This document shows, in pieces, positions 7,772-63,038 of a DNA stretch of 64,000 bases. How positions within the stretch are numbered: the stretch's first letter is position 1; each line of letters opens with the position of its first letter. This stretch comes from Dictyophora rubrovolvata (lineage: Eukaryota; Basidiomycota; Agaricomycetes; Phallales; Phallaceae): assembly GCA_029959195.1 (NCBI GenBank), contig CP114121.1, positions 992,001 to 1,056,000 on the forward strand, in the 5' to 3' direction. The notes beneath the pieces were generated by a model. It was not told the origin of the DNA. It worked only from the letters and a program-made list of their open reading frames with translations, and made no database searches. A program made the translations under genes and the position numbers.

Positions 7772-10270
7772 ATGGCTACTTTTGGTTTACGCGGACAGGA
7801 ATCACATTCATTCTCAACCGTGGATCATTCCATTAATGGCGACGACCATCCCACTCCGCGTTAGTTCGTATATAGAAAGCCATGAAATGTTTTATTGATT
7901 TTAGTTTCGTTGCTATATAGTACTGTCAAGCGAATCGAGCTTCAACATTCCAGCGCCAGAAAACGATGAGGACGTCGAACCGACGCAAGCTCAGAGCCAG
8001 CAAAGACAAACGTCGTATAGTTTTGATGAAAACAACCACCTTGTGGCTGTATTGACGTCCCTGGGTCCTAATAATCGTGAATACGAGCTGAAGAAAGATC
8101 AGCCTGAACGTAAATGGATTATAGGTAGAGGCAAAGAGTGCGACATTATTATCGGGGACAATCAAATCAGTAAATTCAAATCGTTTGTGCTTTTGTTGAG
8201 ACTGGTTTTCTGAACGTTCGTAGGCAGCAAGCACTGCACTTTGACTTGGAACGGGAGGGTGGGTCAACAATCCGAGATAACTCTCGGAGATACCTCGACA
8301 AACGGAACGAAAGTTGACCAGTGTTTCCTGAAACACGGTACAACCATCCTACGCAGCGGTGCATCAATCACTTTAGCAAATACTCGCATGTCTTTTCCTA
8401 AACTACCTTGATGCCGTCTAATGCCCTCATTTAGGCCTAATTTACCGGGATATTGAAGGTTTTTCACCTCGCTGTGCCAAGACTATTTGGGCCAAATATG
8501 ATATTGGTGTGGAGTAAGCATCTCCCTTTGTTTAACAATGCACGTTTCGATGTTTAACGATGGACCCGCACGCGCAGACTAGGCAGAGGAGCGTTCGCGA
8601 AGGTCAATGTATGTGTTGAACGCGAAACTGGTAAAGAATATGCTGTCAAGATCATCGACAAAAAAAGATTTTGGACTGCGGGAAAGGCCATTAGACGTGA
8701 AGTTGCGATCCTCCACGAGCTGTCTCAATTCAGACATGTAAGAATGATGGCTTAATGAACGAATGAGACAAACACTCACACTTTTCTAGGAGCATATTGT
8801 TTCATTATATGAGTGTTTCGATGAGCAGGAATCTCTTTGTAAGTCTTTTTTTGTCAAGAAACTCCTGCTACTAAGCCTCTCTCATAGATCTCGTCTTTGA
8901 ACGACTCAACGGTGGTGATCTTTTGACTTATATCCTTAAACGTGGACCTATCCGTATGTCCTGTTCGCTGACTCCGTTTTCAAGTTTTCACTTTTTTTAT
9001 GGTTTTCAGCGGAAGATAGAGTTCGTTGGATGGCTGCGCAGATGTGTCAAGCTGTTGCTTATATCCATCAAAAAGACGTAGCACACCGAGACCTCAAACC
9101 TGAGAATGTCCTTTTAACTGATGACAGTGACTGGCCTAAGTGTAAAATTGCCGACTTTGGCTTGGCTAAAATCGTCGACGGTCAAACGCTTTTGACAACA
9201 ACATGTGGTACACCTGCATACCTGGCTCCCGAAGTTCCCTTACGACCCGACACCGCGCAGGCTTACGATTATAAAGTAGATAGCTGGAGTTTGGGAGTTA
9301 TTCTCTTTTCCATGTAGGCTAGGTTGCCCGTTCAATTAGCTAATGTTCCTAATTGTTCTTTTTTTTTTTTCAGGCTGACAAAATGCGCCCCTTTCGCGGC
9401 AATTTATGACCAGAACAAACCTGAGCATGAGCGACTTAAGTATTTCCGGGAACGGGTGGTTCAATGGGACATGTTGGATAATTGTCATCTGAGTGCACCC
9501 GGTGCGTATTTTGTTAATGGTTAAATAGATGATTATGACTATGATTTCTCCCGACAGGTGCAGACTTCATTCGATGCCTTCTTCAAGACGACCCCGTTAA
9601 AAGAAGTTCGGTTGAAAGCATGTTGGACCACGAATGGATTGCTAAATACGTCCCTTCGTACTCGAAGATTTTCCCGTCGCCTTTGGGTGAGATGTCACCA
9701 GCACCCTCCTCAACAGACCAAGATACCTTGGCATGTTCTCAAAGCTTTCAGCATCTCAACCTCTCAGATGGTTTGACTATGCCAATCCCTGGATTGACAG
9801 CGGCTGGTTCAGACAATCTTGAGCCAACGCCGCCACCCATTAACGTTGAGGTTCCAAGCTTTTCTTCTGACTCTTCAGTGACAGTCAAGATGCCGGGGGC
9901 ATTTCCCAAGGGGCGAAAACCCCCGGTAGCTTTGCTTCCCGCTATCGCTGAGGGTGATTCCGAAGCCCTTTTAGCAAATACAGAGTCAACGGTGACTTTG
10001 AAACGAAAGGATTATTATTTGGTGGCGGGCAGCTCTCCCCTTTCGTCGCTGTCTTCTTCTGACGACGAAGAGGAATCTGATCCTCCTGAGCGGCCAAAGA
10101 CGGTTACCCGTCGTCAACCATTAAACCCCAAGAAACGTATTGGCTCTCCCCCACCCGATACCATTCTCCCTAAAGCCAAACGCCCTACTTCAAAGGGTCG
10201 GTCTAAGACCACGACGAAGACGACGGCAATTCGGAAAAGCACCCGAACTCGTTCGACTAAAAAGTTGTAG
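7772..10270 (+). CDS. CHK2: FHA-domain checkpoint kinase, Chk2/Rad53/Cds1 type
   Basis: Chk2-family kinases are activated by ATM/ATR-type kinases after DNA damage; the FHA domain binds phosphothreonine. The start at 7772 (MATFGLRGQES) gives a short exon ending at an intron from 7860. An SQ/TQ-containing stretch (EPTQAQSQQRQTS) could be phosphorylated by ATM/ATR. The single FHA domain shows WIIGRGKECDI, SKHCTL and TSTNGTKVD. The kinase domain has ELGRGAFAKV, AVKIIDKK, HRDLKPENVLL (catalytic Asp), DFGLAK, CGTPAYLAPEV and DSWSLGVILFS, so it should be active. The tail of about 200 residues is Pro/Ser-rich and ends in a basic stretch (SKGRSKTTTKTTAIRKS), a likely nuclear signal. One intron (8386-8434) appears to use a GC donor. 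The single FHA resembles Chk2/Cds1 more than budding-yeast Rad53, which has two. Confidence 0.92.
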
Positions 10271-17201: not shown

Positions 17202-20200
17202 TTACGGTGCATATCCTCCGCCATATCTATATGCATAACTGTAGGACTCGTACTCGTTCCCTGATGCTGGATTAGCGTAAACTTGAGCTTGAGTATGGTC
17301 GAATCCTATTCCGGACATGGGATCCGTCGCGTAGCCATTGACCGCATGCACTTCATATGGTTCTGCGGTTAGGGAGACGGAGTGATGTTGTATTTGATGT
17401 TGCTGCTGCTGCATACCTACGTCATATGAACCCGTCTCCGTTTCATATTCGACACACATATGATACGAATCCGTTACTGACTGAACGCCCGGGGCATAGT
17501 ACGGATGCATATCCATAGAAGCTGTTCCCATGTTTGGATGTGCGACAGTCATAGATCCATGTGCCTGCTCCATCATGTCCGGCGAATATTCCATGACGTA
17601 CATACCGTCATGAGAGTTGAAGACGGGAGATACCTGGCTGCTGTGGTACGCCTCATTATCCCCTTCTTGAAGCATCGTCACATCCGGGTTCGTATAAGGA
17701 GAAGTTGTCGAGTGGGGATGTATATCGTCAGAGTTTTTGACACTCTCGTCCGGGGTGGGATAACCATGTTGAGTGTGATGTTGCTCGACGATGGGAGAAT
17801 GTACGTGTCCATGGGCGTAAAGCCTATATGAGTCATAAGGGGGGATCGTCACCTGCACCTGAGTTGGAATCGGGTATGTTTCATTAGATGAAAGAGATAT
17901 GACATTGGCTGGGTCTTGTAGGTCTACAGGAACCGTAGGTGATAGGGAAGATTCGACGGAAAAGGAAGGGGGCTGTTGAACTTCGAGTTTTATTTGTACT
18001 GGGATGTCGGAATTCATGTTGGTGGGCGTTGGAGTCAACGAACTATTGCTCCCTTCTGAATCGATGGGGGACCCGATCTCGCCTCCATCGTTTTTCGGTT
18101 CATTCACAATTTCTTCACCACCTCCTTCTCGTTGAACGATCTCTTCTTCCATATCGTCATCACTCTCCAGGAGGTCGCCAGGCCTTTCATCTTCGTAGAG
18201 AGGGTCCAACTCCAATTGAGGTTGTTGTTGTTCGTCCTCAACCTCCACGCGTACATCTTCATTCTTGACAACGACAGCTGCGGAAACAGAAAGCGCGTCA
18301 TCTTCAGCAGCCACTCCCGGCACGTCTCTCTTCTTGCCCTTGCCCTTGCCCTTACCCCTGGACTGAGTTTTCCATTTATTATCAGTCGTCGAGGTTGTCC
18401 ACTTGAAACTACTCGTCATACTTTTCATCCCACCTTTGGAACTAGCAATCGCACTAGATGTAGGTGCGAGTGCGGGTGTCAAATTAGCGTAGGTGAGATG
18501 TTTGGGAGGTCGCCCGCGACCACGATTAGGAGGTTTAGTGATTACAATGGAAGAGGAAGAAGGGCCGGACGTCGTCAAGCTTGGGTTATTGGAGGTGGTA
18601 GGAGAAAGTAAAGGTCGCAGTGGAATCGGGTCTGTAGACGCGACCGTTGGAGAAACCACTTCACCATTTCCTACCTCGTCTCCGTCGTCTCCCTCCTCTG
18701 GATCAACCTCTCCATTGCCATCCATATCCGCATCATCATCATCATCCATCCCACCCTTATCATCGCTCTGATCCTTATTCCCATCTTTCTTGCTTTTCTC
18801 AGCGTCTCCACCTTTCTTCGCCAACTCCTTTTCCTTCGCCTCCTTCTCTCTCGCCTCTTTTTCCTTCTCCTTCTTGCTCTTTCCCTTTCTTACACCTCGT
18901 TTAGATTCAGTCGGCCGTTCGCACGCAAGTCCGCGTCGAGCACATTGACTGAACTATGTCAACGCAGGGTTAAGTATGAGATTGAGAAGTTGGACTCACT
19001 TGCAGGGACCTTCATCACCCGTTAAGGTTTGCAGCGGAGGCGATGAGAGCAATACGGGAGGCGTTGACACAGAAGGAGACGTTGGTGAAGTGGATGATGT
19101 TGAAGTACTATTATTACCTTCAACGGTCGACGATAGCTTAGGACCCGAGTCTTCTGTGCCTGTTGTCTCCGATAGCGCTTCTCCCTGTCCCTCCCCCTGT
19201 TCTAACTGTACAGCAGCCGTCGTAGTCGTAGTCGGCGTTGCCGCCTGTTGCTGAGCTTGAGCTCGGGCTTGTGCTTCCTGCGCCAGCGCGATTGCCTCCG
19301 GTCCCGGTCCGCAGGCAATCTTCCGCTTCCGACAGAAATAACATGCCATGCGTGGTTTACGCATCGCCATTGCGTTCGGATTGGAAGATGGTGCCGCGCT
19401 GAGACCGGGGGTTGGAGTGTTAAAGTTGTTGAGCACGCCAGTAGTAGTAGTAGATGATGCCGCGGCTCCTGGAACATTTTGACCGCCGTTCGCTGAGACT
19501 GAAAACGTCGACGTGGTGTTTGGTGGTGGCATTTGTGTTGCTGCCGGGCCTGAAAAGTTGAGTGCTGGTGTCATGCTCATGCCAATGTTGACTGACGTGG
19601 TGAGCATCGTTGAGGTAGGACCTGATGAGGAGACAGCGACAGCGGCGGTCGCGTTGGTTGTTTTTTCGCTCTTTTCCTTTTTTCCAGCGTGCCCTCCCGG
19701 AGCTACACCGTTAGGAGTCAATGCCCCAGGAGCGATAACTAGTCTCATGACGCTTGAACTCGTTTCTGGGGCACATGTTGGTCCGGGGAGGGCCTGACCG
19801 CGAGAAAGAGGATAAGAGCCGAATAGACCAAAAATAGGAGCCGGGGTTGCTATATGTGCGGGAACGGGATCTGGAATGGTGATTGAAGTGAGGCTTTTGT
19901 TAGGCCTTTGACCTTGTGTTTGAGTTTTTGTCGGCGAAGGAGCTACTAATACTGGTGTTAATGCCAATGCAGAGGGAGGTGGTGATGGAGAAGATGTTGG
20001 TATAGTTGTTGTAAGAGTATGATTTACGCCAGAAACAGGACTGGAACCGGCTGGTGTTTCGTCTCTGCTTATGGGGCTATCGTCTTTCCTCTTCTCTTTT
20101 TCCTTGTCACCAACGCTGATTGTCGGTCTGGCATTGGCATAAGGGTGGAAGGCCTTGAATGGTTGTTCGCGTTCACGGCGAACAGGGCGGGTTAAACGAG

Positions 20201-20915
20201 GTGGAGGAACGTGGGTCATTGGAGAGGACGGTTCGCAGGGCGATTGAATTTGGGAATGAGGCGGGGGGATTTGGATTTGGGGTTTAGACGACGATGGTAT
20301 CGATTGAGATGGGGAATAAGTTAGAGGTTGTTGCTGAGATTGAAGGGGATACGACTGGGCATGCTGTTGCTGTTGCTGATGATATTGTTGTTCGGGTGCC
20401 TGACTAGAATTCGGCGGTGTCGATTGCTCCATCCCCCATTCGTATTCGTAATCACATGAATACTGTCTTTCAGCTGGAGTAATATCGCCATCATGAATGT
20501 TGACATCAGCATCGGGGGCATCTGGACTCTGGGGACGAATGAGAGGATCGGTGAATATTAGCTCCTGTTGCGGCGAGGAGGTAAAATATGACATGGTGGG
20601 TGGGACGGTGGTGGGACAAGTCATGTATCCAGGGGTAGGGGTATCGATGGTCGTGCTAGGTGTGGATACGCTGTATAATCATAGGGTTTAGAATCTGAAA
20701 TACAATAGATAGCACAAACACGCTTTGGAAACGCACAATTGATAGTGACTCGGCTGTGCACTCCTGGGCTGCTGATTTTGACCTCGGATCTGGATCTCTT
20801 GTTGAGTCTGCTGATCTTGATATTGGGAATGGGGATAGGAGTGACGAGGAGGGAAATCAGTCCGGAGATGTACTTCAGACTGGAATTCGAATTGGTATGG
20901 GTAGTGGGAGTACAT
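17202..20915 (-). CDS. Large low-complexity Zn2Cys6 transcription factor with split zinc cluster and apparent frameshift
   Basis: Zn2Cys6 proteins are fungal DNA-binding transcription factors. Predicted exons are 20737-20915, 19000-20670 and 17202-18949, about 1,200 residues. The start MYSHYPYQFEFQ begins a Gln/Tyr-rich region. The first half of the zinc cluster, ACYFCRKRKIACG, ends with its third cysteine at 19311-19313. The fourth lies at 19002-19004 and is spliced into CNQCARRGLACERPTE, giving a 102-residue Ala/Gln/Ser/Thr-rich loop where the family normally has roughly 5-12 residues. The long C-terminal half is acidic, then Pro/Ser/Tyr/Met-rich, as in activation domains. With the acceptor that keeps the zinc cluster, the frame breaks in a TTTT run at 18900-18903. 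Removing one T restores PTESKRGVRK and connects to the 540-codon open frame. This may be a sequencing error or a genuine lesion. Targets unknown. Confidence 0.75.
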
Positions 20916-44771: not shown

Positions 44772-46238
44772 ATGTCTCAAACCACATACCTGCAATATGA
44801 CTCGCCGTGTAAGCAGAGTCTCCATTCCGTTGGCCAATTGTCATTAAACTTGTTTTCTTACTACCTTCTCCGTCGCTCTCCATGATTAGGGACTGTGTAT
44901 GCCATGGACTGGTGCAAGACGTGGTCGCAAGGGCAGACTCGTCCGCGCACTGCTTTCAGAATGGCTATTGCATCGTACAGCGAAGACTATCGCAATCGTT
45001 TGGCTGTCGTTGGGTTGCAAGACGAGCGCTCGTTGGTCGATGATGAATTACATGGGCCGGGTTACAACGACTTTGTTGTCCTAGCTGAAACTGTTCACGG
45101 ATATCCTGCCACTAGACTACAGTGGCAGCCTTCGTCTGCGTCTGCGTTTAATTGGGCTGTCAAATCTTCCGCTACCGAGTTATTAGCGACAACAGGCGAT
45201 GCCCTGCGCATATGGGATTTTAGTTATGACGGGGAGTCAAAAGGTACAAGCTTTGTTGGAAGACATCAAAATTCGCCTGCGTATTCTCTATCACAGCGTG
45301 TAGCTTTATCTGGAGTAAGTTGTGTTATGCTACTGCTTGCTTTTCGTCTAAAAAAATGTTGCTATTAGTCTAAAGCACCAAGCTCTTCATCAGGCCCTCC
45401 ACTAACATCCTTCTCCTGGAACACGGTCTTACCTAGCCATATTGTAACCTCTTCGATAGATACAACATGCACCGTCTGGGATATCAATACTTCTTCAGCG
45501 ATCACACAGCTCATTGCACATGACCGTGAAGTTTACGATGTCGCATGGTTACCAGGTTCGACGGACGTCTTCACCTCTGTCGGAGCTGACGGCAGCTTGC
45601 GCCTATTCGATTTACGATCACTGGAACACTCGACGATCCTATATGAAGCCTCGTCCGTTCGAGCCAAGGAAAACGCCAAAACCGCGTCTCCCCAAACCAG
45701 GCCCATGTCGACACCCCTGTTGCGGATTGCTTTCAATCCGTCGGATTCCCATTATATTGCTGCTTTTCATGCTGACTGTGGGGATGTTCAAATATTAGAT
45801 ATGCGTAGTCCCGGTGCGCCTGTTATTGAGATTAAGGCTCACAAGGCGCAGGTCAATGCTATTGGGTGGGGGAAGCAGGAAAGCATGTTGGCTACAGTCG
45901 GTATGTTCGTCTTTAAAGGAAAAGGCTTGAATGATTGCTAATGATATCATTACGTTGCAGGCGATGATTCACAGGTGTTAATCTGGGACCTTTCACCGCA
46001 AGCCATTGCATCTCCACGAACCCTGACTACAAGACTCGGTTCTTCTCCACGACCTGATGCCAAGCGGCGAACGATAACCGATCCGGTACTCGCCTACACA
46101 GCTCCATGCGAGATTAATAATCTAGCCTGGTCGCCCGTATTACACCCAATGAATATACCCGGAACCGGAAACATGTTCACTGGTGGAGAGTGGTTAGCCA
46201 TCGCTGCTGGCAAGTCGGTCAAAATACTCAAAGTTTGA
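44772..46238 (+). CDS. DCAF7: DCAF7/WDR68 (AN11/TTG1-type) WD40 protein
   Basis: DCAF7/WDR68 is a conserved WD40 scaffold that binds DYRK/HIPK kinases and can act as a CUL4-DDB1 substrate adaptor. The start is a 37-base first exon (44772-44808), [12 protein letters not shown], whose last base forms the Trp of DSPWTVYAMDW across an intron ending at 44889. This matches the family's N-terminal APWTVYAMNW. Repeats then read [82 protein letters not shown]-like [28 protein letters not shown] and VKILKV at the end. An inserted Ser/Arg-rich loop ([14 protein letters not shown]) follows the penultimate blade. Four exons, all GT-AG. Identity is very clear; its partners in fungi are less studied. Confidence 0.93.
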
Positions 46239-54667: not shown

Positions 54668-56287
54668 ATGTCTGCTAAACGACCTTCAACAATAATTGAT
54701 TCCGAGCATTTACCGAAAAGACGATTCAAAATCACTGAAGAGAACGACTCAACATCGAAATTTGGCGTACTTCTATATGACGAACTGCTGTTACTGATAT
54801 TTTCATATCTTTCGTATACCGACTTGTGCAGTGTACAAAGGATTAACAGCAAATGGTCTCGATTATCGCTCGATAACCAGGTACATACAATCTAATTCTG
54901 AATTCGTCGGGCGTTATTGAAACAGTTTGGATACCATCCGGGTAGTTGTGGAAGAATCTTTACCTGAGAGAGTTTGACAGGCCTCGGCTTAGGGGGAGCA
55001 GAGGCTTTCCGTCATTGTCCATGGTACGGGCGGATGGCAGACCCGTCAAAGCGCTTCCAACCAAAGGTCATGTCGACCATCTCAAAGATTGGAAATGGAT
55101 GTTTCGTATCAGCTGCAATTGGCGGACAGGTATGTGTCTTGCTGAGAAGCTGATCATACCACCTCTCATTAGAGACGTCAGGCCGGTCGCAAGTTGGAGA
55201 AATATCGTGGTCAGGGTTGAGTTCTCAGGCTGGAGATTTTCCAGCTCATATCGCTTTAGCTGGGGGTCTTATCATTGCTGCATCACCACTGTTATCGACA
55301 CTTCCTCGGCTCATTCTCCAGGCGGGAGAAGAGACTGCAATCGTGGCTTCGCCGGATAATTTGACCCCCAGGCGTATTACAGCCATTGCGTTAGATCAAT
55401 CCCAGCCAGCCGGCCGCGACTACCGGCTCGTTGTATTCTATTCCACTGCCACATTTAGTCTATTCCTGGTCCGTCCTTTGGTATTAGAGGAATCTAAAGA
55501 GATAGCGACATGCACTTCGTCCGATAGACGAGCAAGGTCGGGAACGATCATTCAAGCAGCCTATCACCATCCATTGCTCGTCGTACTATCTTCCCGGTTT
55601 GATTTATCCATTTATGAACTGCAAGCTTCTGAGACTGGGGAACATTACGAAATACGCCTCCGACAGACTCTCACCTCATTTACATCTCATCTACCAACAT
55701 CTCTCACTCTTTCAATGCCATCGTCTGATATTTATAGACTTCTTCTTGCTTACACTGTTCCCATTTATCCAGAACACTGGACTGCTGGTATCACCGAGGT
55801 GATGATCTCATCTTTTACTGTACAATCCTCCCATTCGACTACCGCATTCGATCTGGGCTCCACCTGGGTCCCGTTGACTCCTGAATTATCTGAGGTTTTG
55901 AATGAACAGAACGACCTCAAGCTGGCAAGCGTTTCGTCGGTTTCCACGGACGGGCGCTATGTGGTCCTTGCCAGCAGGTCTACGAACTCGATACAACTGT
56001 TTCGCTTGTTTAGCAAATCGAAAAATCAGGGGATTAAATTGCTATTCATACGAAATTTACACGGACATTCCAGACCTGTTCAGGCGCTTGCCGTGTCGGA
56101 TGGTCGTTGCGTCAGTCTATCCCGAGATGGGAAACTTTGGGCTTGGGATATCGAACGAGATACCAATGTGGAAATACGGACACAAACTTATCGTGATGCG
56201 CCCGTTTCTTCGAAAGTTATCTTTGATGAACGTCGTATTCTTGTGGTGTCAGGTGATCGTATTATTATCAACCGGTTTGATGTATAG
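54668..56287 (+). CDS. F-box protein with a beta-propeller-like C-terminus
   Basis: F-box proteins recruit substrates to SCF (Skp1-Cul1) ubiquitin ligases. The start MSAKRPSTIIDSEHLPKRR is followed by the F-box: LLYDELLLLIFSYLSYTDL, CSVQRINSKWSRLSLDNQ and, after an intron, LWKNLYLREFDRPRLRG. A further exon junction (HLKDWKWMFRISCNWRTE to TSGRSQVGEISWSG) leads into a long single exon with repeating strand patterns, ending in recognisable WD-like blades: HGHSRPVQALAVSDGRCVSL then RDGKLWAWDI, and RRILVVSGDRIIINRFDV. The whole is about 500 residues in three exons. An in-frame ATG at 54626 would add 14 residues. The substrate is unknown; the propeller is an inference from the pattern. Confidence 0.82.
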
Positions 56288-61247: not shown

Positions 61248-63038
61248 CTAAGGACGACGAATTGTCGGAGGGAATTGTTGACTAGGAGTGCGTAAACTCT
61301 CAGTGAGTAATTGATGCAACAATATATGCACTTGAAAACAACTTACATATTTTGAAAATACTTTATCCAACATGCTCTTGAGCTTTCCCCATTCAAACAC
61401 TTTGACATCCTTCTCAATGTTGCGTGGTCTCGGTGGAGGAAACTCCATGATGAGTCGGAAGAAGTCTTCCGTACCCGGCTTAGACTTGCTGACTGTCAAA
61501 GGCTTGAAGCCTTCCAAATTTCGCCTGATGCGATTCTTCTCCTCGACCTCGAACCGACTGCCGGACAAAGACTCTAGTAGATATATGACATCGACAGAAG
61601 TGATGAAAAAGTCATCAGTGTCTTCTCGGTAGATGCAGGAGACGACAATGGTGTTCTCTTTGTATGACTCTTGGGGGACTACGTTAAAGAAAATCTCGAA
61701 CATGTTGCCTACTTGACGTTTCCAAAATTGAACAAGGCGTCTGTTGGCATTCAGTTCACTTTCAGTCCTATTAGGAAAGGAAGAATCAATAATGGTATTG
61801 TACGTCGAGGGAAGAGACACATACCAAGAGTGTTTCATGGTTTCCAGGTTATTACGAAAGACGACGAAGGCTGGTTCAGCCATTTGGCTTCCGAGTTGTG
61901 AGGTGCGAACCAGCGACTTTGTTGTTATATCATTTGGGGGAGAGGATGAAGGCATGATAGTCAAATTGGAAACTGGCCTACTGGTTTTTGGTGGCAGAGC
62001 AGAGTCATCAAGATAAACTTGGGGGTCTGATGCAACAGAGAGGCATCGAAGACTTGTCGTATTATCGTCAACTGGAGCCTGTTTTATAAGCGTTGTCGAC
62101 AGTGGGGCTGTCTCAGTATGTAAGCTCTTTGCGGGTAGACTTGGGTAATCATGTGTCGGCGTGGAAGGTGACGGACCAGGAGAATCTGAGTAGTCTAAAA
62201 AGATACATCAGGTATATCTGTGTAAATATCTACCAACGATCAAAAAAGCGTTTCAAAAAAGAATAGTAAATCATGTATAAAGGATGGGCGGAGACTCGGC
62301 TCGAAGCATTGCAAGTCTCGCTGGGAAAAACACTTGAAGCCGAAACTCCGAATTAAGGGGGAGGGGAGAGATACATATGGCAAAGGGAAAAAAAGGAAGG
62401 GAGAAGGAGGGAAACTTACTGTCGTAGGAAAACGCTCCGAAGGTAACCGAATCAAGCACACTGCCATTTGAATCCAAAGCCTGAATACTTAGAGGCCATT
62501 CGAGTCGACCGTCAGGTCTCGCGGTTGCCAAATGAGCAGAGACGCAGTCTATAGAGGGGACGTAGGCTTTCATGGTCCAGCTGCCTTGAAATTGAGTATA
62601 TGAGTCGTCAGAATTTGCTTCGACAATGGTCGGGCGTGGTACATCTCCAAACACAAGACGCAGTCGAACTGGACCTTGATTGTTGGTGGAAAAATCGAGG
62701 TAAGTGGTAATGCAGGTGCCGCTTTGACCGGTGGATGGCGTGTAAGAGTGGACGGTGACCATCCCACCTTGGGAGACGACAGATCCGCTGTTTGCCCCTG
62801 GAGCAATTGCCACGGACGACGAAGCTGTTGATGCCATGGCCGGTAGAGAATGAGTACTTTGGGTGGGCTGGGAAGTGGAAGGGTAGGTGGTGTACGTGTT
62901 CATGGGGTAATTGGCCAAGTACTGCTGCAATTCGGTTTCAGGCGATGGATTTGGGGAATGCAGAAGGTGGGGAGATATCGAAGAAACAGGAATTTGAATA
63001 TGAAGAGAAGGGGGTGGATAAAACGTTGCAGTGGACAT
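61248..63038 (-). CDS. Medusa (MedA/Acr1/Ren1/Med1)-like developmental regulator
   Basis: Medusa-family proteins are nuclear regulators of conidiation, filamentation and virulence-related development in filamentous fungi. The start MSTATFYPPPSLHIQIPVSS begins a Pro/Ser/Thr-rich region. A TIG/IPT-like strand pattern follows (MVTVHSYTPSTGQSGTCITT, then VRLRLVFGDVPRPTIVEAN). Next come a disordered linker (YSDSPGPSPSTPTHDYPSLP) and the conserved C-terminal block: ANRRLVQFWKRQVGNMFEIF, TIVVSCIYREDTDDFFITSV, DVIYLLESLSGSRFEVEEKN, RIRRNLEGFKPLTVSKSKPG, FPPPRPRNIEKDVKVFEWGK. This block matches what I remember of the MedA family. Four exons; an intron after CACTCTTG (about 61830) removes an otherwise open in-frame stretch. 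It ends SLRTPSQQFPPTIRRP. The assignment rests on the C-terminal block. Confidence 0.65.

Follow-up and report, generated by a model that had tools for sequence, protein, structure and literature searches.

A gene on the minus strand of contig CP114121.1 of Dictyophora rubrovolvata probably encodes one zinc cluster of the Zn2Cys6 type that closes around a tolerated, mostly disordered loop, the link between its third and fourth cysteines (C3 and C4) having grown to 102 translated residues. The window, as used here, is the whole stretch of 64,000 nucleotides that was analyzed (positions 992,001 to 1,056,000 of the contig), and coordinates are those of the window unless a contig is named. The six cysteines lie at residues 446, 449, 456, 559, 562 and 569 of the open reading frame, with the spacing C-X2-C-X6-C-X102-C-X2-C-X6-C. 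Read on the minus strand, the first half of the cluster, ACYFCRKRKIAC (19311..19346; C1 19343-19341, C2 19334-19332, C3 19313-19311), corresponds to positions 2-13 of the Pfam family PF00172 and carries the C-X2-C-X6-C pattern of Zn2Cys6 proteins in CYFCRKRKIAC; the second half, CNQCARRGLAC (18921..19004, minus strand; C4 19004-19002, C5 18944-18942, C6 18923-18921), is interrupted by a putative intron and displays the family pattern C-X2-C-X6-8-C given the predicted splice at 18999-18949. The first-pass annotation of this DNA had placed C3 at 19311-19313 and C4 at 19002-19004 with 306 open bases between them, coordinates that proved right: the loop DNA, 19310-19005, comprises exactly 102 codons with no in-frame stop. 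Both halves had also been called canonical, which holds for the C-X2-C-X6-C spacing found twice, but for the second half only after removal of the putative 51-nt intron 18999-18949, of which there had been no mention.

Once the loop was trimmed, the domain aligned with positions 2-38 of the 39 in PF00172 (28.6 bits, E 1.6e-6), passing the curated Pfam cut-off for Zn_clus of 21 bits; because both halves align in this way, they are not chance pieces. When the loop was kept, the match fell into two stretches and scored 19.2 bits, below the cut-off, and the spacer of 102 residues departs from the 5-12 residues of the strict C3-C4 motif, both failures being due to the loop. The relatives of the trimmed domain in the PDB were PUT3, HAP1/CYP1, LEU3 and PPR1 (9 distinct sequences, PUT3 being the best, E 8.8e-4). 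Between C2 and C3, the region corresponding to Arg-X2-Lys-X-Lys reads RKRKIA, so that the Arg and the first Lys are kept and the last Lys is Ala. No family was detected when each exon was searched alone against Pfam at E up to 10, and a genome-wide PF00172 search, which scores only the best first-look candidates, gave 34 matches at E up to 10 without this gene among them. A standard Pfam search can therefore miss a regulator of this kind, and counts of Zn2Cys6 regulators may consequently omit a hidden class.

Two frames of the minus strand are involved, one open from 20678 to a stop codon at 18998-18996 and the other ending at 17202. The loop frame is continuous with the former, a frame of 560 codons whose stop codon falls inside the putative 51-nt intron. 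The coding part of exon 1 would span 19000..20594, starting at a likely ATG (context CCACCCACCATG) in the frame open from 20678; the putative intron (18949..18999; GTGAGT...TTCAG, splice score 12.5 bits) would split the Asn codon directly after C4, and exon 2 would extend to the stop codon (17202..18948), with further in-frame introns possible. Removal of 18999-18949 joins the two frames into GPC-NQCARRGLACERP, while without splicing the frame hits a stop immediately past GPCK; from the sequence, this splice is presumably a real junction. The product would be a large, mostly low-complexity regulator of the Zn2Cys6 type, of about 1,113 residues with 20594 as the start of translation and no additional splicing in exon 2. 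Directly after the cluster we found a Lys/Glu-rich segment (18744..18920, minus strand; 21 K+R and 16 D+E in 59 residues), followed by an acidic one (18624..18743, minus strand; 16 D+E and no K+R in 40 residues) which is a possible activation region, and by a GRGRP core within NRGRGRPPKH (18507..18521, minus strand), which we take to be AT-hook-like. Two in-frame GT-AG stretches of exon 2 on the minus strand, 18355-18278 (78 nt, 13.2 bits) and 17605-17477 (129 nt, 15.2 bits), have intron-like scores, so that additional or optional introns may be present in exon 2.

Translation of the loop (19005..19310, minus strand) gives a sequence that is Ala/Gln-rich, then Glu/Gly-rich and finally Ser/Thr/Pro-rich. 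It has no F, W, Y, H, C or M and is the sole such window of 102 residues among the 1,039 in the protein, a uniqueness that arises in part because Cys bounds the loop; no Cys or His that might substitute for C3 or C4 is present in it. By charge and hydropathy the loop lies barely on the disordered side of the boundary (0.434 vs 0.445), and even by the standards of this protein it has a low composition entropy, with 0.6% of windows being lower. Structure prediction, carried out on the single sequence of the exon 1 part only and with an identical outcome when repeated, gave a mean pLDDT of 56.4 and a pTM of 0.25, and at that mean pLDDT the model was too poor for a fold search. In this low-confidence model a helix covers the first cluster half (residues 6-16 of the piece) and a single helix is predicted for the Ala/Gln-rich stretch at loop residues 4-23 (19242..19301, minus strand), with no helix or strand in the rest of the loop.

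The chance of finding the loop frame open was estimated with first-order Markov models, giving P = 0.037 when the model described the loop itself and P = 0.012 when it described presumed non-coding downstream DNA; the openness of the frame is thus weak or mild evidence for coding. Synonymous codon use gave the loop no coding support: its score was -0.053, no better than the -0.058 and -0.018 of the other two forward frames and unlike the rest of the gene, where other windows of 102 codons, which lie inside the training set, scored 0.041 +/- 0.023; uniform recoding gave -0.039 +/- 0.035. The GC content of the loop (0.57) compares with 0.52 for exon 1 and is above that of all 22 reference introns (0.23-0.50). 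We infer that the loop is translated.

The first-pass annotation had suggested that part of the loop could be an unrecognised intron, and had named an in-frame candidate, 19117-19010, which has a branch-like site. For comparison we collected reference introns from 29 neighbouring kinase-homology exon pairs of the genome, keeping the 22 that scored over 3 and dropping 7; training was restricted to GT donors with a consensus prior, replacing a version that drifted to GC donors, and the set therefore leans to consensus donors. These introns measured 47-86 nt and scored 8.8-19.5 bits, or 3.1-18.2 bits when each was left out of the training. The loop contains six in-frame GT-AG pairs with a length of 40 nt or more, which could shorten it without a frameshift; the best reached 5.2 bits, above two of the 22 reference introns when these were left out (3.1 and 4.6), and the lack of coding support from codon use agrees with an intron as well. 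However, the candidate 19117-19010 scored -0.3 bits and, with 108 nt, is longer than any of the 22 reference introns, and both it and the best of the six compare poorly with the 8.8-19.5 bits of the reference set and the 12.5 bits of the gene's own intron; the GC content of the loop points in the same direction. Furthermore, the first GT of the loop occurs at 19211, 33 codons past C3, so any single removal within the loop leaves a spacer of at least 57 residues (57-87 for the six pairs, 66 for the named candidate), and combinations of two introns never brought it below 38. Since these are the shortest spacers left by single and paired GT-AG removals, no hidden GT-AG intron, taken alone or in pairs, restores a normal cluster. 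That the loop, wholly or partly, is made up of one or two introns and that the mature spacer is shorter is on these grounds distinctly unlikely.

As a control, in-frame pairs of at least 8.8 bits were counted in exon 1 before the cluster (0/62) and in exon 2 (6/178), the latter indicating that such scores occur in presumed coding sequence, unless exon 2 has real introns. A looser count of splice motifs in the window and in the reversed sequence displayed no clear excess (e.g. 9 vs 10, 30 vs 22, 71 vs 67) and was set aside. Two pairs that are not confined to the loop scored within the reference range: 19360-19251 (110 nt, 9.1 bits), which extends outside the loop, breaks the frame and would remove the first cluster half, and 18999-18954 (46 nt, 10.0 bits), a shorter version of the intron that would frameshift the second half; splice forms that destroy the cluster may therefore exist. 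The expansion of a repeat, also put forward in the first-pass annotation, found little support, as searches for tandem and dispersed repeats gave only short, weak arrays and the sole tandem array of the loop consists of 2.7 copies of 6 bases. Of its three options, tolerance of a giant loop by the cluster has the strongest support, given by the canonical halves, by the absence of a normalising splice in the loop and by published precedent.

In the mechanism that we favor, the two canonical halves would pack into a single binuclear cluster, the basic stretch after C2 would contact DNA, and the loop would protrude as an arm that is mainly disordered but may have an Ala/Gln helix at its start. In Gal4, one zinc ion is shared by C3 and C4 as ligands; if this applies here, the price of the loop is chain entropy, and no ligand is lost. 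Zinc binding, DNA binding and regulation by the gene product are presumed from the sequence, and the loop would be an expansion that the cluster tolerates, not a module under selection. The opposite proposal, a selected regulatory module in which phosphorylation or partner binding governs the closure of the cluster and its binding to DNA, is in our opinion unlikely; it draws on S/T-P sites that are denser in the loop than elsewhere (5 in 102 residues, 4.9 per 100, vs 31 in 999, 3.1 per 100), on the helix-like Ala/Gln stretch of the low-confidence model and on the long spacers described in both Saccharomyces cerevisiae Sut1/Sut2 and their Candida glabrata counterpart (see below), although the difference in S/T-P density comes down to five sites and much of the remaining protein is also low-complexity. 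It seems quite improbable that the halves have ceased to form a binuclear cluster and that the gene encodes a degenerate regulator whose binding to DNA, if there is any, goes through the AT-hook-like motif and the basic segments: the unmodified domain does score under the Pfam cut-off (19.2 vs 21 bits), and exon 2 has an AT-hook-like core and a Lys-rich segment, but all six cysteines are kept with X2/X6 and X2/X6 spacing, whereas loss of cysteines would be expected in a degenerate cluster. Finally, we consider very improbable a conditionally assembled cluster, whose halves, belonging to a single chain or exchanged between two chains, would close only when the arm is folded, bound or phosphorylated, DNA binding being the switch; should this be true, profile-based surveys can overlook split clusters, and fungi may have others of this kind. 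The case lends itself to a test of the passivity of the loop by comparing proteins with the loop in and the loop out.

Within the same genome, C3-C4 spacers could be read in one frame for 18 distinct clusters and were of 5-11 residues in 17/18 and 21 in the remaining one, in a count that detects only spacers of 4-40 residues, so that other giant-loop clusters would escape it. The count was derived from 30 loci cut from the 34 PF00172 matches, which gave 19 rows, two of them for the same cluster, while 11 loci gave none. The cluster with the 21-residue spacer, which no other of the 18 exceeds, is located at about 1864961-1865113 of G000:C7 (L018/L030). No close paralogue of either half was detected in the 28.2-Mb genome, the one match per half being the gene itself. 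A pattern search gave three matches, one being the gene itself and the other two a second sequence present in two identical copies; in one of these copies (L033) the match lies in no frame of at least 100 codons. A further pattern search of the genome remained at chance level (39 matches vs 38 in the control). Collections of prokaryote and viral contigs, which are uninformative on fungi, gave 0 pattern matches each, and none of 175 stretches from a separate search of the prokaryote collection was confirmed. In mushroom relatives whose half motifs are similar the spacers are probably short, a point to which we gave no weight.

Other features of the window include a strong match to DUF7082 (61251-62207, minus strand; 203.3 bits, E 2.3e-60), WD40/beta-propeller-like exons on the plus strand (45369-45938 and 55154-56284), and a protein kinase match with one internal TAG (G000:C5:1001009-1001329, about 9009-9329 of the window, plus strand; 111.7 bits).

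Very long spacers have been described in yeast, so the view of the first-pass annotation that a giant spacer falls outside the family holds for the strict motif of 5-12 residues and not beyond it. Sut1 and Sut2 of Saccharomyces cerevisiae, which are much smaller than Ecm22/Upc2, have a C3-C4 spacer of over 60 residues and are still counted as zinc cluster proteins, as described in PMC5412356; CgZCF36 of Candida glabrata, a Sut1 homologue, has one of 77 residues, and the same report gives R-X2-K-X-K as the Gal4 motif between C2 and C3 (PMC4025492). A DNA motif for Sut1 was obtained in vitro with protein-binding microarrays (PMC3334620). These long spacers and the Sut1 motif make a single cluster with a protruding arm plausible. 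In mushrooms, the survey of Pleurotus ostreatus lists 66 zinc cluster proteins of 15 types and a longest C3-C4 spacer of 15 (PMC7295025); by its own description it dropped sequences that lacked six Cys in the region of the zinc cluster domain, and giant-loop members could be hidden from it. Our literature search for a basidiomycete zinc cluster with a giant loop found none, and published cases may nevertheless exist.

Compared with the Gal4-type clusters of PUT3, HAP1, LEU3 and PPR1, the protein has the same C-X2-C-X6-C halves, with Arg after C2 and Lys three residues on; it differs in its spacer (5-12 there vs 102 here) and in the third basic position of Gal4, which is Ala here. The Pleurotus ostreatus set belongs to the same family and also comes from a mushroom, with a spacer of at most 15 in that survey against 102 here. 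Closest in layout are Sut1/Sut2 and CgZCF36, Zn2Cys6 proteins with a very long C3-C4 spacer whose yardstick of over 60 residues is exceeded here; the likeness noted is one of spacer length, the protein described here having about 1,113 residues and a spacer of 102 against the over 60 and 77 reported for them. It shows how far the C3-C4 link may stretch, beyond the Sut1-type cases compared, and by analogy with these it appears to be a known oddity taken to an extreme, not a new kind of protein.
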